Below are positions 4,130 through 39,403 of a stretch of 64,000 bases of DNA, piece by piece. The position numbers were made by a program, and so were the translations under genes. Position 1 is the first letter of the stretch; every line of letters starts with the position of its first letter. Source of the DNA: Candidatus Segetimicrobium genomatis (GTDB lineage: Bacteria > Sysuimicrobiota > Sysuimicrobiia > Sysuimicrobiales > Segetimicrobiaceae); NCBI GenBank assembly GCA_005882275.1, contig VBAK01000105.1, positions 1 to 64,000 on the forward strand, read 5' to 3'. The notes under the pieces are model-generated. The model had not been told where the DNA came from. It made no database searches and was given only the letters and a program-made list of their open reading frames with translations.

Positions 4130-6046
4130 TTGTTTAGCAAGTACATACGGAACCTGATCGTCTGGGCGTTCATTCTGGTGGTGGTGCTGTACCTGGTGCT
4201 GCCGCTGTACCAGAGCCGAGGACCGTCCAGCGAGGAAATCCCCTACAGCGCCTTTGTGTCGGAGGCGCAGCAGGGGCAGATCGATCAGGTGAAGATCGGC
4301 GACGAAGCGGTGACCGGCTCGAAGAAGGACGGCCGGCCGTTCCGCACGTACGTGCCCAAGGGCGACAGCTCGTACATCCAGCTGCTCAGGGATAAGGGCG
4401 TCAAGATCAGCGTCGAACCTCCATCGCGCTCATCGCTGTGGCCCAATCTCCTCTCGACGATGCTCCCCTTCCTGGTGCTGGTCGGCCTGTGGATGCTGAT
4501 GCTCCGGCAGGCGCAGTCGGGATCCAACCAGGCGATGTCCTTCGGAAAGAGCCGGGCGAGGCTGCACACCGAAGCGAAGACCCGCGTGACCTTCGACGAC
4601 GTCGCGGGGGTCGATGAAGCAAAAGAGGAACTGGAGGAGATCATCGAGTTCCTCCGCCACCCCAAGAAGTTCCAGGCGCTGGGGGCGAAGATCCCGCGGG
4701 GCGTCCTCCTGGTGGGACCGCCGGGAAGCGGCAAGACGCTGCTGGCGAAGGCGATCGCCGGCGAGGCCGGGGTTCCGTTCTTCTCGATCTCCGGGAGCGA
4801 GTTTGTGGAGATGTTCGTCGGCGTGGGGGCGAGCCGGGTCCGCGATCTGTTCGATCAGGCGAAGAAGTCGGCCCCGTGCCTCGTGTTCATCGACGAGATC
4901 GACGCGGTGGGACGGCAGCGGGGCGCCGGACTCGGCGGCGGGCACGACGAGCGGGAGCAGACCCTGAACCAGCTGCTGGTGGAGATGGACGGGTTCGACC
5001 CGAACTCGGGGATCATCGTCATCGCGGCGACGAACCGGCCCGACATCCTCGACCCGGCGCTGCTGCGGCCCGGGCGGTTTGACCGGCGGATCGTGGTCGA
5101 CAACCCGGACACGAAGGGGCGGCGGGCGATCCTGGGCGTGCACGTCCGGGGCAAACCGATCGGAGAGGACGCCAACCTGGACGTGCTGGCCCGCAGGACG
5201 CCGGGGTTCAGCGGCGCGGACCTGGCCAACATGGTGAACGAGGCGGCGCTCCTGACCGCGCGGCGCGGGAAGAAGCGGCTCGGGATGTCCGAGTTCGACG
5301 AGGCGATCGAGCGGGTGATCGCCGGCCCGCAGCGCAAGAGCCGGATCCTGTCGCCCAAGGAGCGGGAGCTCACGGCCTATCACGAAGGCGGGCACGCGCT
5401 GCTGGGCAAGCTCGTGCCGCAGGCGAACCCGCCGCACAAGGTGACGATCCTGCCGCGGGGGATGGCGCTGGGGTACACGATCCCGCTGCCGCAGGAGGAG
5501 AAGTATACGGTCACGCGCAGCGAGATCCTGGCGAACATCACCGCGATCCTGGGCGGGCGGGTGGCCGAAGAGATCGTGTTCGGGGAGATCACCACCGGGG
5601 CGGCCAACGACTTCGAGAAAGCCACGGAACTGGCCCGCAAGATGGTGACCGAGTTTGGGATGTCGGACAAGCTGGGGCCGCTGACGCTCGGCACCAAGCA
5701 CGGGCCGGTATTCCTCGGCCGGGATCTGGTGGAGAGCCGGAACTACTCGGAGGAGATCGCCTACGAGATCGACAAGGAAGTGCGCCGGATCATCGACGAG
5801 TGCTACGGACGCGCGCGGGCGGTGCTCACCGAGCACAAGGATGTCCTCGACCGGATCGCCCAGGCGCTGCTCGAGCGGGAGGCCCTCGAGAGCGAAGAGC
5901 TGGACGCGTTGATCGCCGGCCGGGCGCTGCCGCCCGAGGAGCCGGTCGTGGCCCCGCCGGCGCCGGCCCCCACCCAGGAAGTGAAGTCGTTCCCGCGGCC
6001 CGAGACGTCGATCCCGCCGAAGCTGAAGCCCGAGGCGACCGGATAG
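4130..6046 (+). CDS. ftsH: ATP-dependent zinc metalloprotease FtsH
   Basis: Membrane-bound AAA+ protease for damaged and short-lived membrane proteins. Two membrane segments flank the periplasmic domain ([16 protein letters not shown] near the start; [14 protein letters not shown] about 110 residues later). These are followed by Walker A GPPGSGKT (residues 196-203 from this start), Walker B VFIDEID, the second region of homology [20 protein letters not shown], and the zinc site HEGGH (418-422). I chose the TTG at 4130 because AGGGGGA sits about 8 bases upstream and the resulting MFSKYIRN start resembles other FtsH N-termini. In-frame ATGs at 4055 and 4103 lack good ribosome sites. The C-terminal tail is proline-rich. 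Confidence 0.95.
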
Positions 6047-6069
6047 GCGCTGGAGGGTGGACGGATCTC

Positions 6070-6103
6070 CGCGGGGAAGTAGCCGGTGGGCTGCTTCCCC
6101 GCG
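6070..6103 (+). terminator. Terminator-like hairpin after ftsH
   Basis: A 15-bp stem (6070-6084 with 6089-6103, one G-T pair) with a GGTG loop starts 23 bp after the ftsH stop. The downstream sequence is not T-rich, so it may act as an RNA-stabilising or factor-dependent end rather than a classical intrinsic terminator. Confidence 0.6.
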
Positions 6104-6122
6104 TGGCGTTGAGGAGGGCCGG

Positions 6123-6764
6123 GTGAACATCCGCACGAGGAACGACCGCGCGCTCGAGGTGCCGCCGTACACCGTGGAACCCCGGGTCCAGGTCCGGCCC
6201 GGGACCACGGCCCTGATCATCGTGGACATGCAGAACGACTTCGTGGACCCGCAGGGGCGCCTCTCCGTGCCGAGCGCCCGGGAGACCGTGCCGGCGATCC
6301 GCCGGCTCCGCGACCTCGCCCGCGCGCACGGCATCCCCGTCGTCTACACGCAGGACTGGCACCGGCCTGATGATCCCGAGTTCGCGCTGTGGGGAGTGCA
6401 CGCCGTGGAGGGGACGTGGGGAGCCGAGATCTCACCCGACCTGGCGCCCGGACCCGGCGACGTCGTGATCCGCAAGCCGCGGTACGACGCGTTCTACGGC
6501 ACGGCCCTCGAGCACGAGCTCCGGCAGCGGCAGATCGATACGCTGATCGTCACCGGAACGGTGAGCAACATCTGTGTCCTCCACACCGCCGGGAGCGCCG
6601 CGCTGCGCTGGTTTCGGATCGTCGTCCCGGTGGACGCGGTGTCGGCGCTGGAGGAGTTCGACCAGCAGGCGGCCTTTCGCCAGATCGCGTTCTTGTACCG
6701 GGGGACGCTCACGCGGAGCGAGGGCATCGCCGTCCCCGCCGGTGACCCGCCCCGCCCGGGGTGA
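6123..6764 (+). CDS. Isochorismatase-family cysteine hydrolase
   Basis: 213-residue alpha/beta hydrolase of the nicotinamidase/isochorismatase superfamily. The triad is visible as Asp in IIVDMQNDF, Lys in IRKPRYDAF and Cys in GTVSNICVLHTA. True nicotinamidases have a metal site of the form DWHPxxHxSF. Here it reads QDWHRPDDPEF, so the second His is missing and a nicotinamidase call is not safe; biuret, ureidoacrylate or other amide hydrolases are alternatives. The GTG at 6123 follows a strong GGAGGG (6113-6118). It is the first gene of a likely two-gene unit with the membrane-anchored protein at 6777. Confidence 0.8.
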   Translation: MNIRTRNDRALEVPPYTVEPRVQVRPGTTALIIVDMQNDFVDPQGRLSVPSARETVPAIRRLRDLARAHGIPVVYTQDWHRPDDPEFALWGVHAVEGTWGAEISPDLAPGPGDVVIRKPRYDAFYGTALEHELRQRQIDTLIVTGTVSNICVLHTAGSAALRWFRIVVPVDAVSALEEFDQQAAFRQIAFLYRGTLTRSEGIAVPAGDPPRPG

Positions 6765-30915: not shown

Positions 30916-31557
30916 GTGGTAGTTGCGCGCAGGCCAGTCGTACCCGTGTATCAGGAAATGGTCGATGAGCAGTTAGTCGATTGTGCCAAGAGTGGAGACG
31001 AGTTCGCCGCCGAGTTCCTCATCAACAAATACCGCAACTTCGTCAGGGTCAAAGCCAAGGCGTACTTCCTCATCGGGGCCGATCGCGAGGACATCATCCA
31101 GGAAGGGATGATCGGCCTCTACAAAGCGATCCGGGATTTCCGGCGGGACAAGCTCTCGTCGTTCCGGGCCTTCGCCGAGCTGTGCATCACCCGCCAGATC
31201 ATCACCGCGATCAAGACGGCGACCCGGCAGAAGCACATCCCGCTCAACTCGTACATCTCCCTGAACAAGCCGATCTACGATGAAGACTCCGACCGCACCC
31301 TCCTGGATGTGATCAGCAGCATCAAGGTGTCCGATCCCGAAGAGCTCGTGATCAACCAGGAAGCCTCGCTCACCATGCGCGAGCGCATCCGGAAGAACTT
31401 GAGCGATCTGGAGTGCCGGGTGCTGACGGCCTATCTGGAAGGGAAGTCGTACCAGGAGATGGCGACCGAGCTCCACCGCCACGTCAAGTCCATCGACAAC
31501 GCCCTGCAGCGCGTCAAGCGCAAGCTCGAACGGAACCTGGAGGGCGAGGAAGAGTAA
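30916..31557 (+). CDS. sigH: RNA polymerase sigma factor SigH
   Basis: 213 residues of the sigma-70 family, SigH/Spo0H type. Region 2: DIIQEGMIGLYKAIRDFRRDK and FRAFAELCITRQIITAIKTATRQKH (core binding and -10 recognition). Region 4: LSDLECRVLTAYLEGKSYQEMATELHRHVKSIDNALQRVKRKLE. In Firmicutes SigH controls competence and entry into sporulation, and sits after rlmB as here. Whether this organism sporulates cannot be seen in the window. The GTG has GGAGGCGAGAGG upstream; an in-frame ATG at 30958 is a possible later start. Confidence 0.93.
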   Translation: MVVARRPVVPVYQEMVDEQLVDCAKSGDEFAAEFLINKYRNFVRVKAKAYFLIGADREDIIQEGMIGLYKAIRDFRRDKLSSFRAFAELCITRQIITAIKTATRQKHIPLNSYISLNKPIYDEDSDRTLLDVISSIKVSDPEELVINQEASLTMRERIRKNLSDLECRVLTAYLEGKSYQEMATELHRHVKSIDNALQRVKRKLERNLEGEEE

Positions 31558-31586
31558 GCGGCCCCCACGCGGCGGGCGCGCGTTTC

Positions 31587-31615
31587 GGACGCCACCCGGC
31601 GACCGGGTGGCGTCC
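31587..31615. terminator. Hairpin between convergent sigH and LuxR-type gene
   Basis: GGACGCCACCCGG (31587-31599), loop CGA, CCGGGTGGCGTCC (31603-31615): 13 perfect pairs. It lies between two convergent genes and could end transcription from both sides, although neither side has a strong T tract. Confidence 0.65.
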
Positions 31616-31645
31616 GGCGTTGCTCCATCGTCACCCGCGCGGCGC

Positions 31646-32431
31646 CTAGCGCACGTACCCCCCGCGGATCGCAAAGGCGGCGGCCTGGGCGCGGCCCCGC
31701 ACCTCGATCTTGCTGAAGATGCTCCTCAACCGGCTCTTGACCGTGCTTTCGGAGATGAACAGTTTGTGCGCGATTTCCCTGTTGGGCAGCCCCCGAGCGA
31801 CCTCGGCGAGGATTTCGGCCTCCCGGTCGGTCAGATGCTCACCGAGCACCGGGCCGCCGTTCCCGTCTTTCGAGAAATGCGTGAGCCGGTTGAGCATCCG
31901 CCGCGCGATGCCGGGATGGACCAGCGCCTGCCCCCGCCGGACCGCGTGGATCGCCTGCAGGAGGTTGTCGGGCGTGATGTCCTTGAGCACGTATCCCGCC
32001 ACGCCCGCGCCGACGGCTCCGAAGATGCTGGCGTCGTCGTCGCAGGCGGTGAGCATCAGCACGTCCACATCCGGGGCGGACCGCTTGACGGTCCGGCAGA
32101 GCTCGATGCCGGACATGTCCGGCAGGGTCACCTCGGTGATCAGGACCGACGGGTGGGTGGACGCGCAGAGTGCCAGCGCGTCCCTGCCGGTGTGGCACGT
32201 TCCCACCAGTTCCAGCGCCGGATCCGACCGCAGCACGGACTCCAGCCCCACCACCGTGATCGGCTGCGCATCCGCGACCAGCACTTTCGCGCGCGCGCCC
32301 GATGCCGGGATGCGACTCGCCGCGGGCGCCGGGTCGGGGGCCGGTCGATCAAGGGAGGGCAGCGCAGGCCCCGCGGGGGTCCCGTGATGCCGCGCCGGGT
32401 CCCCGGTGAGTCCGGAGAGGGGAGCGTTCAC
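31646..32431 (-). CDS. LuxR-type response regulator with Glu at the phospho-acceptor site
   Basis: 261 residues from a GTG that overlaps the STAS stop. A proline-rich 45-residue leader precedes a receiver domain (AKVLVADAQPITVVGLESVL) and a C-terminal LuxR helix-turn-helix (LTDREAEILAEVARGLPNREIAHKLFISESTVKSRLRSIFSKI). The phospho-acceptor normally reads D-x-x-x-P; here ITEVTLPDMSG puts Glu100 there, and one Asp of the acidic pair is Ala53 (VADA). It may be permanently active or respond to a partner instead of phosphorylation. The conserved Lys (YVLKD) remains. Confidence 0.88.
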   Translation of the reverse strand: MNAPLSGLTGDPARHHGTPAGPALPSLDRPAPDPAPAASRIPASGARAKVLVADAQPITVVGLESVLRSDPALELVGTCHTGRDALALCASTHPSVLITEVTLPDMSGIELCRTVKRSAPDVDVLMLTACDDDASIFGAVGAGVAGYVLKDITPDNLLQAIHAVRRGQALVHPGIARRMLNRLTHFSKDGNGGPVLGEHLTDREAEILAEVARGLPNREIAHKLFISESTVKSRLRSIFSKIEVRGRAQAAAFAIRGGYVR

Positions 32432-32808
32432 GCGTTCGGAACTGCGGGGGACACAGGAATGACCTGGTCCAGCTTGAGCAGCCTGAGCAGCCTGCCGACG
32501 TAGGGCGACGGGGCGGCCAGGATCACGCGGCATCCGTGGCGGCGGGCGCGCTGATCGCACGTCTCCAGGACGCGAAAGCCGGCGGCATCGATCCTGGTGA
32601 CGTTGGACATGTCCAGGACCACGTTCTTGGAACTGTCAACGGCCGGTTCCAACGCATTCCTCAGGATTGGAGCCGTGTCGTGATCGAGATTTCCCGAAAG
32701 GCGAAGCACGGTGGCCTGTCCGGCGTCTTCGACCCACAGGGTGAGCCCTTCTCCGGTCTGACGCCGGCCTGCAACCGTCGCCCCAGCAGCGTGTCCACGC
32801 CTGTTCAT
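32428..32808 (-). CDS. STAS domain protein without phospho-serine
   Basis: 126 residues of the anti-sigma-factor antagonist (SpoIIAA/RsbV) fold: VLRLSGNLDHDTAPILRNALE, NVVLDMSNVTRIDAAGFRVLE, RVILAAPSPYVGRLLRLLKLD. The phosphorylation motif is normally DSSG or DSTG; here it is DAAG (74-77), so no Ser or Thr can be phosphorylated. The protein should be locked in the unphosphorylated-like state or have another role. No cognate anti-sigma kinase is visible. Its stop overlaps the start of the LuxR-type regulator. Confidence 0.85.
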   Translation of the reverse strand: MNRRGHAAGATVAGRRQTGEGLTLWVEDAGQATVLRLSGNLDHDTAPILRNALEPAVDSSKNVVLDMSNVTRIDAAGFRVLETCDQRARRHGCRVILAAPSPYVGRLLRLLKLDQVIPVSPAVPNA

Positions 32809-32992
32809 CCATCGGAGAGTCCGCTCCTTGCCCAGAGATCAATTGGCTCGGGTCAACTCACCGCCGCGCCGTGGAAGCGGACTACCCCCCCTGTTCAATC
32901 TACGCGGAGAGGCGTCAAACGGATGACAAGAAAGGGCGCCGATCTCGTCAAGAAAGTGTCAAGACCTCAGGGCAGACCCTCAGGGGACTGTC

Positions 32993-33679
32993 CTAATTCC
33001 CCAATCGGTAGCCGATTCTGGACTCCGTGAGGATGTAATGCGGGTGCGCGGGATCGCGCTCAAGTTTGCGCCGGAGGTTGCTGATGTTGACTCGGAGGAG
33101 GTGAGGTTCCTTGGCATAGCCGGGTCCCCAAACCTGCCGGAGGAGCTGCTGATGGGTCAGCACCTTGCCGCGGGCCAGGACGAAGGCTTTGAGCAGCTCG
33201 TATTCGGTGGGGGTCAGGCGGGCGGCGGTGCCGGCGACCTTGACGAGGCGGCGTCCCAGGTCGATTTCGAGATCCCCGTGCCGGAACGGCTCTCCCGTGC
33301 CCTCCCCGGCAAGACGCCGGAGCAGCACCCGGATGCGGGCGAGCAGCTCCCCGACGGCGAACGGCTTCGTCAGGTAGTCGTCGGCCCCCCCGTCGAGCGC
33401 CGCAACCTTCTCCTCTTCCTGGTCGCGGACCGAGAGGATGAGGATCGGGGTATTCCCCTGCGCCCTGAGGCGGCGGGTGACCTCGACGCCGTCCCCATCG
33501 GGCAGCCCCAGGTCCAGGATGACGATGTCCGGACGCACGGCGGCGGCCGTCGCCAGCGCGGCCCCGGCGGTTCCCTCTTCGAAGACCGTGTAGGCCTGTC
33601 TCCCAAGCACGATGCGCAGCAGCCGCCGGAGCGCGGGGTCATCGTCGACGACGAGGACGCGAAGGCCGTGGGGGCTCAT
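32993..33679 (-). CDS. OmpR/KdpE-type response regulator
   Basis: 228 residues. Receiver domain with the acidic pair VVDDDP, phospho-acceptor Asp56 in ILDLGLPDGDG, and KPF. A winged-helix output domain ends in LTPTEYELLKAFVLARGKVLTHQQLLRQVWG and LRVNISNLRRKLE. The sequence pattern (SVRDQEEEKVAALDGGADDYLTKPF) is KdpE-like, but no kdpFABC potassium pump is in the window. The ATG at 33679 lies six bases after the end of the sensor kinase gene, so they form a two-component pair. Confidence 0.92.
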   Translation of the reverse strand: MSPHGLRVLVVDDDPALRRLLRIVLGRQAYTVFEEGTAGAALATAAAVRPDIVILDLGLPDGDGVEVTRRLRAQGNTPILILSVRDQEEEKVAALDGGADDYLTKPFAVGELLARIRVLLRRLAGEGTGEPFRHGDLEIDLGRRLVKVAGTAARLTPTEYELLKAFVLARGKVLTHQQLLRQVWGPGYAKEPHLLRVNISNLRRKLERDPAHPHYILTESRIGYRLGN

Positions 33680-33684
33680 CGGCC

Positions 33685-35616
33685 TCACGCGATGGGGAGG
33701 CTCACGTTGACGACCAAGCCGCCTCCCTCCCGCCGCGCCGCCCAGATGCGGCCCTGGTGGGCTTCTACGAACCCTCTGGCGATGGTGAGGCCGAGCCCGG
33801 ACCCCCGCGCCCGGTCGGACGTGAGCGGCCCATTCGGGTGCCCCGACGCCAGGAACACCTGATTGAGGTGCTCGGGGGAGACCCCGTTCCCCTGGTCGGC
33901 GATACTGACGACGACGTGCCCGTCCTCCACGTGAGCGCCCACGTCGATCGGGGTCTGGGGGGCGGAGTACTTGACGGCGTTGTCCAGCAGATTGATCAGC
34001 ACATGAGACACGAGCAGGGGGTCCATGGGGATCAACGGGAGACCGTCGGGGAGGTCGACCCGGCAGCGCGCCCGGTCCTGTTTGCCCGACGCTTCCTCGA
34101 CGGCTTCCTGCACCACGTCCGCCAGATTCGCCGGTGCCCGCCTCAGCTGCACGATGCCCGTTTCGAGCCGCCTCATCTGAAGGACGCCGGTGACCAGCCG
34201 GGCAAAACGCTTCACCCCCTGGTGCGCGATGGTCAGGAGTTCCCGGCGCGCCGCGGGCTCGAGCCGGTGGCCTTCGGTGAGGACCGTGTCGAGGCAGCCC
34301 TGAACGGTCGTCAGCGGGGTCTTGAGATCGTGGGCGATCGCATTCAACAGGGTCTTCTGAAGGCGCTCGCTCTCGGCCCACGAGCGGATTTCGCGCTCCT
34401 GGAGGCGCGCCCGTTCGAGCGCCTGAGCCCCCAGGTGCGCCAGGTTCAGGGTGAAACTTCGCTCGTCCTTCGTGAGCCCGCGTCCTTCCGGAAGAATGAA
34501 GACCAGGGCGCCGATCGAATGCCGGCCCGACAGGAGCGGCAGCACGGTCCACACGCGGTCGCGGAGAATGGTCTGGACGCCCAGGAGCAGCGGGTCGTCC
34601 CCCGGGGCCGCCGCGTCGGGATCCGGGAAGATCGGCGCGCCCGTGCGAATGACCTGCGTCACCGCCGTGGGCGCGGAGAGCGGGAACTGCCGCCAGCGCC
34701 TGCGCACGCCCTCCGGAATGCCGACCGCGTGGACGAGCGCCACCGCGGTCCCGTCGTCGCTCAGCAGGTTCATGGAGGCCGCCGCCGCTCCCAGGGCCTG
34801 CGCTCCCCGATCGACGATCACCGCAGCCACCTGATCGGGCGTCCGGGCTTCGGCCAGGGCGGCGGTGATGGCCTGCAGCCGCACGATGAGTTGTGTGCCT
34901 TCCGCGGCGCGCGCCTGTACGGCGTGCAGCGCGTGCACGTGGGCGAGGAGCTCATGCCGCGAGAGCTGCGACAGGGCGCGCACGGGCGTGCGCGCGCGGA
35001 CCAGCGGCGTGAGGTCCGCCGGGAGGCGATGGCTCCGCTCTCCCGCCGGGCCGTCGGCGGTGGCGTCGCGGACGATCCAGTGCATCCGGGCGACATGTCC
35101 TCTGCGATCGCGGGCCACGATCACCGTCAGCGCCGCGTCGAACGGCGCCCCGCTGCGCGGCTGCAGCCGGAGGAACCACTTCCGAAAGGGACCCTCCGCG
35201 TCGCCGCGGGCGAGCCACCGGCGCAAGGGTGGACGCAGGTCGGGGACGACGTAGAGGATCAGCGGCCTGCCGGCCAGATAGTGCGCGGGGGTATGGAGCA
35301 GGGTGCAGGCGGTGAAGTTGGCGTCCTGGATCACTCCATTGGCATCGGTCGCCAGATACCCCTCGGGCACCAGCTCGAGGAGTCTCCTGGCGTGGGCGAG
35401 GTTGGCCTCAGCCGATCGCCAGGCGCGGGTGAGGATCGCGTGCTCCCGACGCAGCGCGTCCGCGGAAGCCTTCAGCGCCGCGAGCGCGGTCGAGGCCTCA
35501 CCCGGCCGGCTCTGCGCGCCGGGCAGGCGGACCGTTCGGTCCGCCGTGTCCGGCGGGGAGGACGCCGGGCTTGTCCCGCCGCTCCGGCGGCCGGAGATCG
35601 TTCGTGTCACGCGCAC
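33685..35616 (-). CDS. PAS-GAF sensor histidine kinase
   Basis: 643 residues and no membrane segment, so a cytoplasmic sensor. Order: PAS-like domain (about 75-185, LLELVPEGYLATDANGVIQDAN), GAF-like domain (about 245-405), HisKA with the phospho-acceptor His429 in AIAHDLKTPLTTVQG, and the ATPase domain with NLLDNAVKYS, ADQGNGVSPEHL and GSGLGLTIARGFVEAH. The C-terminal kinase core resembles KdpD. The start is GTG (35614-35616) behind GGGGGAGG. It lies between the CheR-like gene (31 bp) and its response regulator (5 bp). Confidence 0.9.
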   Translation of the reverse strand: MRVTRTISGRRSGGTSPASSPPDTADRTVRLPGAQSRPGEASTALAALKASADALRREHAILTRAWRSAEANLAHARRLLELVPEGYLATDANGVIQDANFTACTLLHTPAHYLAGRPLILYVVPDLRPPLRRWLARGDAEGPFRKWFLRLQPRSGAPFDAALTVIVARDRRGHVARMHWIVRDATADGPAGERSHRLPADLTPLVRARTPVRALSQLSRHELLAHVHALHAVQARAAEGTQLIVRLQAITAALAEARTPDQVAAVIVDRGAQALGAAAASMNLLSDDGTAVALVHAVGIPEGVRRRWRQFPLSAPTAVTQVIRTGAPIFPDPDAAAPGDDPLLLGVQTILRDRVWTVLPLLSGRHSIGALVFILPEGRGLTKDERSFTLNLAHLGAQALERARLQEREIRSWAESERLQKTLLNAIAHDLKTPLTTVQGCLDTVLTEGHRLEPAARRELLTIAHQGVKRFARLVTGVLQMRRLETGIVQLRRAPANLADVVQEAVEEASGKQDRARCRVDLPDGLPLIPMDPLLVSHVLINLLDNAVKYSAPQTPIDVGAHVEDGHVVVSIADQGNGVSPEHLNQVFLASGHPNGPLTSDRARGSGLGLTIARGFVEAHQGRIWAARREGGGLVVNVSLPIA

Positions 35617-35647
35617 CGTGCCTCCCCCGCCATCCGCCTGTGCGATG

Positions 35648-37513
35648 TCAGGAGGACGTTTCGTCCGCGGGTTCGTGGAGCATCATGACCACCCCGCGGA
35701 TGTCCTTCCCCGCCACGACGAGCGGCGCGCAGTCCACCACGCACTGAAACGTCTTCCCCCGGCGGTTGACGGCCGGCACCGTGATCGTGCGGGCCTCGGC
35801 ATCCCCGGCGAGGCAGACCCGGACCGGCGCCCGCAGCTGTTCGACCGGCAGGCCGATGTCGAGGTTGAGCAGATTCTTCCCCAGGGCCTCCTCGCTGCGA
35901 AGGCCCCACAGATCCCGGGCCTTGGGGTTCCACGCGAGCACTTTCATGTCGCGGTCTACGACGATCACCGCGCTGCGCACGCTGGACATCACGGTTTCAA
36001 GGAACGCGTTCGTTTCGTTCAGTTCGTCGGTCCGCACCCGCAACTGCTCATTGACGGTGTGCAGCTCTTCGTTGGTGGACTGCAGTTCTTCGTTCATGGT
36101 CTCCAGCTCTTCATTCGTGGACTGGAGCTCCTCGTTGGTCGTTTCCAGCTCCTCCACGGTGGACTGGAGCTCCTCGTTGGTGGTCTCGAGTTCTTCGTTC
36201 GTCGACTGCAGTTCCTCGTAGGCGGTTTCCACTTCCTGCTTCGTCAGGCGGAGCTGGTCCTCCGCGCGCTTGTAGGTGGTCACGTCGACGAACGAGAGGC
36301 CCGCGCCCAGCAGACGGCCGCCGGGACCCGCCAGGGGCTTCACCCGCACCTGGAGGGTGAGTTCGTCCTTGCCGGCGGGCGAGACCCACTGAACGTCCTC
36401 CAGGTTGACCGTGCGGCGCTCACCGAGCGCCTGCGCGACGGCGGCGCGCAGATCACCGAGGCGGAAGGTGATCTTCAGGTCCTGGAACGAACTCCCGAGA
36501 TCCCGGTGACTCAGGTCGAAGAGGACCCGCGCGCGCTCGTTCGCGAACAGCAGGGTCTCGTTGAGATCCAGGATCATCTGCGCGGTCTGGCTGGTTTCCA
36601 ACGCCGACAGATAGACGTCGGGCTCCCCGACCGCCGCGGGAGCGGCGTTCCCTCCGTGGTTGGCCCGGGCCGGGAGCTGCCCGCGGCCGCCGGACGTGTT
36701 CTTCGGTCCCTTCCGAAAAATCCGCCGGGTCAGGTCGCTGGGCTCGAAGGTATTGCCGTAGGTCAGCAGCATCTCCGCCCTGCCCAGAAAGAGCACTCCG
36801 CCGTCGTTGAGCGCGAAGTGGAATCGGGCCAGGATCTTCTCCTGGGTCTCTGCGTTGAAGTACATCAAGACGTTGCGGCAGATCAGGATGTCCACGTGTG
36901 AGATGGGGGCGTCCTGGACCAGGTCGTGGCGGCCGAAGATCACCGACCGGCGCAGGTCCTTGTGAAAGATGAACCGCCCGTTTTCCCGATAAAAATACTT
37001 CTCCACCAGGGCAGGCAGGACCGCCTCCACATCGCCGGGCCCGTAGCCTGCCTGGCGGGCGGTGTTCAGCGCCTCCTCATCCACATCGGTGGCATACACC
37101 TTGACGCGTTCTCGGAATTGCTCGATCCCCAGCGCCTCCGCCAGGATGATGGCGGCGGTGTAGGCCTCCTCTCCGGAGGAACACCCGGCGCTCCAGACCC
37201 TGACCGGGTCCTGGGGCGCCTTCGCCGCGAGGATGGCCGGGAGGGCGTCTTTGGCCAGGCTTTCCCAGTGCGGCTGATCGCGGAAGAACGAGGTCACATT
37301 GATCAGAATGGTATTGAACAGGTGGTTGAACTCGACCGGATGGACCTCGAGGAAGTCGAGATACTGATTGGTGTTTTCGAGGCCGAGCGCCTGCAGCCGC
37401 TTGTCGATCCGCCGCGCGAGCGTCGCCCGCTTGTAGGCGGTGAAATCGAATCCGCGGCTCTTCTTCAGGTACTCGAGCAGCGGCTCGAGCCCGAGATCGT
37501 CAGCGCCGTTCAC
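35648..37513 (-). CDS. CheR-type methyltransferase with PAS domains and coiled coil
   Basis: 621 residues. CheR methyltransferase (about 1-270: FNHLFNTILINVTSFFRD, VRVWSAGCSSGEEAYT for SAM binding, ILICRNVLMYFN), a PAS domain (about 310-425), a strikingly regular coiled coil (about 430-500, repeats of TNEELQSTNEELE), and a second PAS domain. CheB-CheR-PAS proteins sit at the head of hybrid signalling systems in many soil bacteria. Here CheB is a separate gene overlapping by 14 bases. The target of methylation is unknown because no chemoreceptor is in view. Confidence 0.92.
   Translation of the reverse strand: MNGADDLGLEPLLEYLKKSRGFDFTAYKRATLARRIDKRLQALGLENTNQYLDFLEVHPVEFNHLFNTILINVTSFFRDQPHWESLAKDALPAILAAKAPQDPVRVWSAGCSSGEEAYTAAIILAEALGIEQFRERVKVYATDVDEEALNTARQAGYGPGDVEAVLPALVEKYFYRENGRFIFHKDLRRSVIFGRHDLVQDAPISHVDILICRNVLMYFNAETQEKILARFHFALNDGGVLFLGRAEMLLTYGNTFEPSDLTRRIFRKGPKNTSGGRGQLPARANHGGNAAPAAVGEPDVYLSALETSQTAQMILDLNETLLFANERARVLFDLSHRDLGSSFQDLKITFRLGDLRAAVAQALGERRTVNLEDVQWVSPAGKDELTLQVRVKPLAGPGGRLLGAGLSFVDVTTYKRAEDQLRLTKQEVETAYEELQSTNEELETTNEELQSTVEELETTNEELQSTNEELETMNEELQSTNEELHTVNEQLRVRTDELNETNAFLETVMSSVRSAVIVVDRDMKVLAWNPKARDLWGLRSEEALGKNLLNLDIGLPVEQLRAPVRVCLAGDAEARTITVPAVNRRGKTFQCVVDCAPLVVAGKDIRGVVMMLHEPADETSS
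36045..36220 (-). repeat. Coding repeats for a heptad coiled coil
   Basis: About eight imperfect 21-base repeats (one heptad each) encode the alternating EELQSTN/EELETTN stretch of the CheR-type protein. On DNA level they look like an array, but they are in frame and part of a gene. Confidence 0.85.
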
Positions 37514-38201
37514 TGGGGCTTCCCCTGACCAGGGTCACCAGAGCGGGGGCGATCTCGTTCAACGGCAGGACGAAATCGACGCTTTTGGTGTCGATGGCCG
37601 ACCCGGGCATGCCGAAGAACTCGGACGACGCCTCGTCCTGCGCAATCACCGTGCCTTTCATCTTCTTGATGGCCCGCACTCCCATCGTCCCATCGCTGCC
37701 CGAACCGGTGAGCACGACGGCAATCGCCCGGTCCTTGAAGCTCGCCGCGACCGACTCGAAGAGCAGATCGGCCGAGGGCCGCACAAAGTGGACCAGTTCC
37801 GAGCGGGACAGAGAGAGCGCGCCGTCCGGATTGACGAGCAGGTGGTGGTCGGGAGGAGCGATATAGATCATCCCGGGCCGGATGGTTTCGCCGTCCTCCG
37901 CCTCTTTCACCCGCAGGGAGGTGCGGCGGCTGAGGATGTCCGCCATGAGGCTTCGGTGCCGGGGATCCAGGTGTTGGACCACGACGATCGCCGCGCCGAA
38001 TTCCGAAGGCAGACCCGACAGGACCTGGCTCAGCGCGTTCAGTCCGCCGGCAGAGGCCGCCACGGCGACGATATCGAAGGCGATCCCTCCGTCGCTCTCG
38101 GGCCTCCCCGGTGGGTGGATTGAATTTTCTGACAGAGGTCGAGCGGGGTTCCCGTCTCGTGTGGGGCGCAGTTCCCATCGGTCACGCTGCGTGTCCCCCA
38201 T
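37500..38201 (-). CDS. CheB-type protein-glutamate methylesterase (no receiver domain)
   Basis: 233 residues: only the catalytic CheB domain. The triad is Ser50 (VAASAGGL), His77 (VVQHLDPRHRS) and Asp170 (LTGSGSDGTMG); the ending GMPGSAIDTKSVDFVLPL is typical. The first 38 residues are not conserved, so the true start may be later; the ATG has GAGGAG upstream. With no receiver domain it cannot be controlled by direct phosphorylation. It is the first gene of a minus-strand operon with CheR-PAS, sensor kinase and response regulator. Confidence 0.9.
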   Translation of the reverse strand: MGDTQRDRWELRPTRDGNPARPLSENSIHPPGRPESDGGIAFDIVAVAASAGGLNALSQVLSGLPSEFGAAIVVVQHLDPRHRSLMADILSRRTSLRVKEAEDGETIRPGMIYIAPPDHHLLVNPDGALSLSRSELVHFVRPSADLLFESVAASFKDRAIAVVLTGSGSDGTMGVRAIKKMKGTVIAQDEASSEFFGMPGSAIDTKSVDFVLPLNEIAPALVTLVRGSPSERR

Positions 38202-38428
38202 GGCCCCCCGCTCCTCGTTCCCGTCTTGACCACCGACGACACCGTTCTCCGTCGGGAGGACAAGTCCCTCGGGTCACCCGTACAGGTGTTCGCAAGTCGG
38301 CGCCGATTTCGCGCCCCGATGCGCCCTTCATGATCTCGCAGAGCCCTGACCGCTGGCACAAGACGCTCGCGCGGTGATCGCGGCCCGCAGGATCGGCCGC
38401 CGTGTGGGGGACGAACTTGACTCGACCT

Positions 38429-39403
38429 CTATCCGCCGATCTGCGACATGATCCGGCGCTGCGGAATGACGCCACGGGCCAGCCCGTGGCCCCAGGGCTT
38501 TCGATACGCCGCCGCCCGGAATCGCTCCCGGATCTCCTCGTAGGCCGCGCCGGTGCGCAGCAGCGCGCGGAGGTCGGTTTCGTCGTCCCGGAGGAGGCAC
38601 GGCCGGAGCCGCCCCTCGGCCGTGAGCCTGAGCCGCCCGCACTGGGCGCAGAACGGCTGGCTCACCGAACTGATGAACCCGAGCGTGCCCCGGGCGCCCT
38701 CCAGGCGGTAGGTCCGCGCCGGATCGTATCCGGTCACATCGATGGGGTGCAGGGGACCCAGGGCGGCTTCGATCCGGTCCATCGTTTCCCGGCTGGGCAC
38801 GTACGCGTTCGTCTGGAACCCGGCCACGCTGCCGAACGGCATCATCTCGATGAACCGCACGCCCCAGTCGTGCGCCAGGGTGAGGCGGGCGAGGCCGGCA
38901 ACGTCGTCCTCGTTGAAGCCTCGAACGACGACGGCGTTGACCTTGATCGGGTGCAGCCCCGCCGCCTCGGCGGCGTCCAGCCCGGCGAGCACGTCCCCGA
39001 GGTCTCCCCAGCGCGTGATCGCCCGGAACTTCGCGGGGTCGAGGCTGTCCAGGCTGACGTTGATGCGGCGCAGCCCGGCGGCTGCGAGCGGCCGGGCCAG
39101 GTCGGCGAGCCGGATGCCGTTCGTCGTCATCGCCAGATCCTGGATCCCGGGCACCTTGGCGATCCGGCCGGTCAGCTCCACGATGTTGGCGCGGACCGTC
39201 GGTTCTCCACCCGTGAGGCGGATCTTCCTGACCCCGAGCTCTGCGGCCGCCCGGATGACCAGCAGCAGCTCATCGTCCGTCAGGATCTCGTCGCGGGGTT
39301 TGAACTCCATCGCCTCGGGCATGCAGTAGACGCACCGAAGGTTGCAGCGGTCGGTCAGAGACACCCGCAGGTCCCGGATCTCGCGTCCGTACTGATCCCG
39401 CAT
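38429..39403 (-). CDS. moaA: GTP 3',8-cyclase MoaA
   Basis: 324 residues, radical SAM enzyme for the first step of molybdenum cofactor synthesis. The N-terminal cluster is CNLRCVYC (after LRVSLTDR). The Ser/Gly-rich RLTGGEPTVR binds SAM, and the C-terminal cluster uses FCAQCGRLRL and the later RPCLL. The C-terminal GG tail (SQIGG) is present. In-frame ATGs at 39460 and upstream exist, but the -10 box at 39471-39476 would leave almost no leader for them, and MRDQYGREIRDLRVS matches the family N-terminus. No other moa gene is nearby. Confidence 0.93.
   Translation of the reverse strand: MRDQYGREIRDLRVSLTDRCNLRCVYCMPEAMEFKPRDEILTDDELLLVIRAAAELGVRKIRLTGGEPTVRANIVELTGRIAKVPGIQDLAMTTNGIRLADLARPLAAAGLRRINVSLDSLDPAKFRAITRWGDLGDVLAGLDAAEAAGLHPIKVNAVVVRGFNEDDVAGLARLTLAHDWGVRFIEMMPFGSVAGFQTNAYVPSRETMDRIEAALGPLHPIDVTGYDPARTYRLEGARGTLGFISSVSQPFCAQCGRLRLTAEGRLRPCLLRDDETDLRALLRTGAAYEEIRERFRAAAYRKPWGHGLARGVIPQRRIMSQIGG

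Follow-up and report, generated by a model that had tools for sequence, protein, structure and literature searches.

A stretch of 64,000 nucleotides from Candidatus Segetimicrobium genomatis (contig VBAK01000105.1), referred to as the window throughout, carries on its minus strand two overlapping genes that encode a LuxR/NarL-type response regulator and a small STAS protein. They form the end of a block of six genes situated between sigH and moaA that follow each other on that strand in the order CheB, CheR-PAS, sensor kinase, OmpR-type regulator, STAS and LuxR-type regulator, with a gap of 184 nt before STAS (Table 1). A preliminary description had noted that both proteins of the overlapping pair lack the residue expected to accept phosphate and had read this as the loss of both phosphosites in one operon, suggestive of a phosphorylation-independent switch. 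Our analysis supports this proposal for the receiver of the regulator, in which the second acid is lost in all eleven intact family members and Glu is the acceptor residue in six, while it does not support the view of STAS protein and receiver as a single switch, since an orthologous pair was not found in any of the 43 genomes of the order that were searched.

Table 1. Features of the sigH-moaA region in the window
Feature	Position	Strand	Basis or remark
Left flank, sigma factor SigH	30916..31557	+	Pfam and family scans
Block that relatives lack at their sigH-moaA junction	31614..38428		Ends from alignment to one relative, G004
LuxR/NarL-type response regulator, pseudo-receiver (D54-A55, E100, T128, K150)	31646..32431	-	261 aa, GTG start; translation, Pfam, alignment
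GTGA start-stop overlap of STAS and regulator	32428..32431	-	STAS stop 32430-32428, regulator start 32431-32429
Single-domain STAS protein, DAAG replacing DS(S/T)G	32428..32808	-	126 aa; translation, Pfam, alignment
Gap of 184 nt between OmpR-type regulator and STAS	32809..32992	-	Promoter/terminator scan, Rfam, fold
OmpR/KdpE-like response regulator, canonical	32993..33679	-	Pfam and family scans
Sensor kinase PAS-GAF-HisKA-HATPase	33685..35616	-	Pfam and family scans
CheR methyltransferase fused to coiled coil and PAS domains	35648..37513	-	Pfam and family scans
CheB methylesterase domain; no receiver domain matched	37500..38201	-	Pfam and family scans
Right flank, MoaA	38429..39535	-	Open frame from first possible start; true start may be shorter

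In the receiver of the LuxR-type regulator, Ala55 takes the place of the second acid of the Asp-Asp pair (V52-A53-D54-A55-Q56-P57) and the acceptor position is occupied by Glu100 (I98-T99-E100-V101), while Thr128 and Lys150 are kept; translation and alignment agree with the earlier description on Glu for Asp as well as on the broken acidic pair. The receiver fold is recognized by Pfam (Response_reg, PF00072, 71.3 bits at a cut-off of 30.2) and is followed by a NarL/LuxR-type output domain (GerE, PF00196, 62.3 bits at a cut-off of 23.5). VraR is the nearest solved structure by sequence (E 6.4e-36), and the score against the CsgD equivalog NF007505 (66.1 bits) stays below the cut-off of 250. Three relatives at E <= 1e-30 occur on plasmid records, the best of them with 41% identity. 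The gene is taken to start at GTG 32431, with further possible starts in the same frame located upstream (GTG 32560 and ATG 32533). The GTGA overlap with STAS was found as previously noted and translational coupling of the two genes appears likely. Both fit coding genes, as the G+C content at the third codon position amounts to 0.89 for the regulator and 0.76 for STAS.

Searches in the 43 genomes of the order (the phylum-wide set comprises the same 43) identified a family of eleven intact copies and one broken copy of the regulator in seven genomes. Five intact copies reside in the genome under study (the window gene, C156, C90, C70 and C136), two in G004 and one each in G014, G028, G031 and G010, with the broken copy found in G003. 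Intact members score 362-423 bits, followed by the next match in these genomes at 267 bits. For alignment, 137 rows were reduced to 131 by removal of four short and two duplicate ones, leaving the 11 clade members and 120 other LuxR-type receivers, the latter being search matches and no random sample. The family tree was derived from 35 of the 131 rows, i.e., the 11 clade rows and the 24 best others, and unites all intact members in one group (support 100/99). Within the genomes searched, this pseudo-receiver family of the LuxR type is seen only in this order; among the best 80 named loci listed, a single one, L112 on the contig of a Bacillota metagenome-assembled genome, is family-like with 52% identity, the other 79 not exceeding 39%. 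The contig of L112 equals G010:C109 in length. The twelfth, broken copy reaches 220 bits for one piece, features a DP acidic pair together with a Glu acceptor and was excluded from the residue counts of the clade. Its gene (L079, G003:C465, approximately 5967-6555) is split over two frames, and the same contig contains a stretch translating to X.

The second acid of receivers binds the metal directly (PMC12632262). At this position, none of the eleven clade members has an acidic residue (eight Pro, three Ala) vs. 116 of the 120 other receivers, among which three are non-acidic (Pro, Ser and Ala) and one has a gap. An acid is present at the acceptor position throughout the clade, namely Glu in six and Asp in five cases, vs. 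118 Asp and two Glu outside. Both Glu and the loss of the second acid therefore exceed what would be expected by chance (6/11 and 11/11 vs. 2/120 and 3/120). Thr and Lys are each kept in ten members and replaced once, by Ser and Thr, respectively. The residue following the Thr (T+1) is small in every case (Ala in eight, Ser in two, Gly in one; Ala in 4/120 outside), and none of the clade sequences carries an aromatic residue at T+2, vs. Phe or Tyr in 75 of the 120 others. Tyr at K-3, Ile at K+2, Pro at D+4 and Gly at D+8 are invariant in the clade and occur in 93, 22, 110 and 115 of the 120 others, respectively. With both trait columns masked, at least three Asp/Glu changes fall inside the clade and four on the whole 35-row tree, and a tree that places all six Glu rows in one group can be rejected (p-AU 5.7e-6). 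Given the loss in 11/11, these repeated changes and the rejection of a single origin of Glu, we conclude that loss of the metal ligand is common to the clade while the acceptor has changed repeatedly between Asp and Glu. With the metal-ligand position lost in the whole clade and Glu at the acceptor in six members, ordinary phosphorylation of Asp is very probably not the way in which the receiver of the window regulator operates.

Conservation of Glu100, to be checked in relatives according to the preliminary description, was rejected for the family: Asp is present in five of the eleven members including the closest paralogue (C156 in the same genome, 72% identity). The family does not appear to decay, as dN/dS lies below 1 in all seven pairs tested (0.16-0.53). 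A LuxR-type regulator outside the clade, L025 (G012:C14), combines an Asp-Ser acidic pair with a Glu acceptor and constitutes a separate case.

Copies with Glu and copies with Asp occur in like gene settings. L071 (Glu) as well as L072 and L073 (both Asp) share the order kinase, canonical LuxR-type regulator and pseudo-receiver, with HD_5 and HisKA_3 domains detected in the kinase of L071 on which the domain scan was done. The simplest reading is that an acid is needed at the acceptor position but not its phosphorylation. The three triplets (L071:3757-7447, L072:3400-7095 and L073:1406-5061) have a CmrRST-like layout, and those of L071 and L072 are preceded by ABC-transporter-like genes, named by eye. 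Exopolysaccharide-type genes are located within about 7 kb of five of the eleven intact clade loci and encode UDP-glucose dehydrogenase and a glycosyltransferase (L074), exosortase and a family-4 glycosyltransferase (L075), UDP-glucose dehydrogenase and a chain-length-like protein (L076 and L078; Pfam scan done for L076 only, with GNVR just below cut-off, and L078 assigned by like sequence) or polysaccharide export protein and flippase (L077). These neighbors may hint at the targets of the regulators. A weak test for a DNA target common to the regions upstream of the clade genes revealed none: no 8-mer is shared by more than three of the seven groups formed by eleven upstream stretches, some of which depend on alignment-derived and possibly intragenic starts, while shuffled stretches reach three groups in 41/50 and four groups in 8/50 cases. 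The surroundings of the 11 further clade copies, among them the broken copy of G003 and the five other intact Glu copies, were read over 5.8-14 kb each and revealed neither STAS (hmmsearch, E <= 1e-3) nor CheB or CheR (blastp, E <= 1e-6). As a control for the STAS search, the window STAS is itself part of the profile; a fairer one is provided by the STAS proteins of loci L246 and L247, neither of which is in the profile and both of which were recovered.

The STAS protein reads DAAG at residues 74-77, and the phosphorylatable Ser of the DSxG loop is absent, just as had been described (DAAG for DSSG). The STAS domain (PF01740, 76 bits, above cut-off) spans the whole protein, which also scores above the cut-off of TIGR00377 and has anti-sigma factor antagonists as best solved matches (best E 4.4e-8). 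Its best relative in 386 genomes, with up to 11 candidates scored per genome, stems from G007, shares 39% identity and has a DAGG loop and other gene neighbors; 18 further relatives on plasmid records exhibit 30-38% identity. The loop alignment comprises 35 search matches, 33 of them distinct and 32 without the window's own. Among these 32 rows, Ser occupies the first place of the loop in 19 and is missing there in 13, while six have neither Ser nor Thr at either place. The eight PF01740 matches in this genome have the loops DAAG (window), DSLG, DSTA, DSFA (three) and DAT (two). On this basis, the STAS half of the original observation is not unusual. No LuxR-type regulator (E <= 1e-5) was found near other STAS genes in 36 loci covering approximately 1.5 kb on either side or extending to the contig end. 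The idea of a joint loss of both phosphosites is therefore rejected: the loss in the regulator is clade-wide, Ser-less loops are common among the STAS rows aligned, and the pair was seen in this genome only. Each of the two losses is of a known kind and seems to have a history of its own.

As judged from few cases, STAS appears to accompany CheB/CheR more often than it accompanies the regulator. It is located near CheR-PAS in all three genomes of the order with CheR-PAS at E <= 1e-120, at a distance of 2.8 kb from CheR in the window and directly adjoining CheB/CheR-PAS in G003 (L246, loop DTSG) and G009 (L247, loop DGAG), and blastp revealed no pseudo-receiver beside the latter two loci. A further, partial CheR-PAS match in the genome under study (C149, E 5e-53) lies in a 3.9-kb locus that lacks STAS. 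At L247:5876-10107, two tandem HATPase_c_2 genes precede STAS, CheB and CheR-PAS in a row, an order that possibly links anti-sigma kinases with CheB/CheR.

With its six genes, of which CheB is the first and the regulator the last, the block measures about 6.8 kb and is absent from the sigH-moaA junction in all eight readable relatives. SigH is present in nine other genomes of the taxonomic family and MoaA is directly next to it in eight, while the contig of G006 ends there. In G004, sigH and moaA are separated by 101 bp; aligned with this region, the window breaks off at approximately 31613 and matches again from approximately 38429. None of the other 11 genomes of the family contains a match to the sensor kinase at E <= 1e-80. 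The longest word common to the two flanking stretches compared is 8 bases long, and hence no sign of a mobile element was seen there. Since the regulator closely resembles further copies in this genome (72% identity with C156), the block was probably assembled from local and other parts. A simple scan of 31500-33300 yielded no promoter- or terminator-like sites, Rfam had no gathering-score match in 31400-38600, and the fold of the 184-nt gap has a z of -1.43.

The window regulator fits the CmrT pattern, with LuxR-type output, and by this analogy we propose with moderate confidence that it is a pseudo-receiver of fixed charge, the amount of which determines its effect. Glu can imitate phosphate, and the Asp residues of GlnR and RamR have been reported to serve dimer formation and not phosphorylation (PMC12632262). 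The fixed charge of the acceptor acid would accordingly keep the receiver in a dimer-forming state, in the manner described for GlnR and suggested for CmrT, and output would depend on the amount of protein and on partners, not on phosphate. Gene order suggests that the upstream kinase and OmpR-type regulator might switch on the STAS and regulator genes in a CmrRST-like manner. Translational coupling would lead to co-expression of the regulator with STAS, which would itself serve the CheB/CheR-PAS/kinase module as a binding protein independent of phosphorylation.

Several points weigh against this proposal. Five of the eleven family members keep Asp, and the small residue at T+1 leaves the site open, which sets the family apart from many pseudo-receivers; even in the absence of the usual metal ligand, some weak phosphorylation may occur. 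Ile at K+2, said to favor the active state, adds little, being present also in 22 of the 120 receivers outside the clade. The window copy has the highest dN/dS among the pairs (0.53 and 0.48) and may be under weaker constraint. With regard to the STAS gene, the 184-nt gap in front of it may hold its own promoter, kinase and OmpR-type regulator separate it from CheR in the window, and its link to CheB/CheR is based on three genomes, while no STAS was found in the 16-17 kb covered in each of four genomes outside the order with CheR-PAS (up to three candidates scored per genome).

Among the alternatives, a tentative possibility is that STAS is constitutively active and antagonizes an anti-sigma kinase encoded at another site, its DAAG loop not being open to inactivation by phosphorylation, and that the regulator is unrelated to it. 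The best solved relatives of STAS, HATPase_c_2 and SpoIIE matches on other contigs of the genome and the two HATPase_c_2 genes ahead of the CheBR-linked STAS in G009 would agree with such a role, but the block contains no such kinase, SpoIIE (PF07228) has no match on this contig and the only match to HATPase_c_2 (PF13581) on it is the HisKA sensor kinase. We regard it as rather unlikely that the regulator family is a mixture of switchable and locked-on paralogues, in which the Asp members still take up phosphate and the Glu members are constitutively "on". Although the five Asp members, the kinase adjoining two of them (L072 and L073, with domains scanned on the L071 relative) and the small T+1 residues are in line with this, the direct metal ligand is absent in every intact member, and L071 with its Glu has the same adjoining kinase and canonical regulator.

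Improbable, in our view, is a direct partner switch without phosphorylation, in which STAS binds the pseudo-receiver and gates its binding to DNA. The overlap and co-location of the genes, the two sites that cannot be phosphorylated in this genome and the regulator-STAS pairs known from elsewhere, PA3346/PA3347 and SypE/SypA (PMC8256260), all speak for it; on the other hand, the pair exists in one genome only, STAS is absent from the regions read near the other 11 copies of the clade, two STAS relatives directly adjoin CheB/CheR, and the known pairs rely on a partner that phosphorylates or dephosphorylates a Ser which the window STAS lacks. Slightly less credible still is an extended version, in which the last two parts of the block are free of phosphate, STAS with its DAAG loop gates DNA binding by the co-translated pseudo-receiver, the acid offers a fixed or CheR-methylated charge and the family constitutes a natural Asp/Glu swap series. 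That Glu100 itself carries a methyl ester by which CheR and CheB of the block switch the receiver is extremely improbable, for although both enzymes are part of a block in which Pfam detects no receptor, CheA or CheW among the six genes and although methylation of Glu has been put forward for receivers of this kind (PMC4395418), neither gene was found in the regions read near the other clade copies and Asp and Glu alternate at the acceptor position.

The way in which pseudo-receivers are switched between their states has been called a mystery (PMC12632262). The natural paralogues described here, five of them in this genome, combine a fixed loss of the metal ligand with an acceptor that varies between Asp and Glu in like proteins and even in like gene settings, a series that makes the question of charge or chemistry directly testable. 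We consider this natural swapping on a receiver without metal ligand the most useful part of the observation, the pseudo-receiver kind itself being already known. The STAS partner adds a caution, as co-occurring losses in neighboring genes need not be one event.

Judged from titles and the beginnings of abstracts among the matches listed, a pair of STAS and pseudo-receiver was not found in the literature, and no paper naming both "pseudo-receiver" and "STAS domain" was found within the collection searched. The STAS protein resembles SpoIIAA and RsbV in its single STAS domain, its matches to solved antagonists and its TIGR00377 score, but differs from them by the lack of the phosphorylated Ser and by the absence of a serine kinase or SpoIIE from the contig, apart from the HisKA kinase. 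A single-domain STAS protein alongside a regulator is likewise found in PA3346/PA3347 and in SypE/SypA, SypE being a response regulator. In these systems, however, the regulator has kinase and phosphatase activity and the STAS Ser is phosphorylated and dephosphorylated, while the window regulator has no enzyme domains and its STAS partner no Ser. GlnR of actinomycetes keeps its Asp. Its likeness to the window regulator, judged by description, lies in an acid that serves dimer formation without phosphorylation in GlnR and is proposed to do so here. STAS-only proteins that work with a regulator and others that are active in the unphosphorylated state have been reviewed (PMC8256260).

Among aspartate-less receivers, Glu is the commonest replacement of the acceptor (26%; PMC4395418), and the second acid of pseudo-receivers is far more variable than the first (PMC12632262, PMC4395418). 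The window regulator resembles receivers of the PsR, ALR or ARR kind in its Glu acceptor and altered second acid; it differs from them in its membership in a LuxR-type family of one order in which the metal ligand is lost in 11/11 members and the acceptor is either Asp or Glu. CmrT from Clostridioides difficile has Glu53, D9-G10-D11, T80 and K102, a substitution pattern called common among such receivers by its authors, and its gene shares an operon with those of a kinase and a canonical regulator (PMC12548384). The window regulator shares with it the Glu acceptor, the altered second acid, the conserved Thr and Lys and the nearby kinase and canonical regulator, but its output domain is of the GerE/LuxR type instead of the OmpR type, and STAS, CheB and CheR are added in what appears from the genes to be an operon. 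As in CmrRST, kinase, canonical regulator and pseudo-receiver are located close to each other on one strand, both in the window (31646-35616), where STAS is inserted between the two regulators, and at loci L071-L073.
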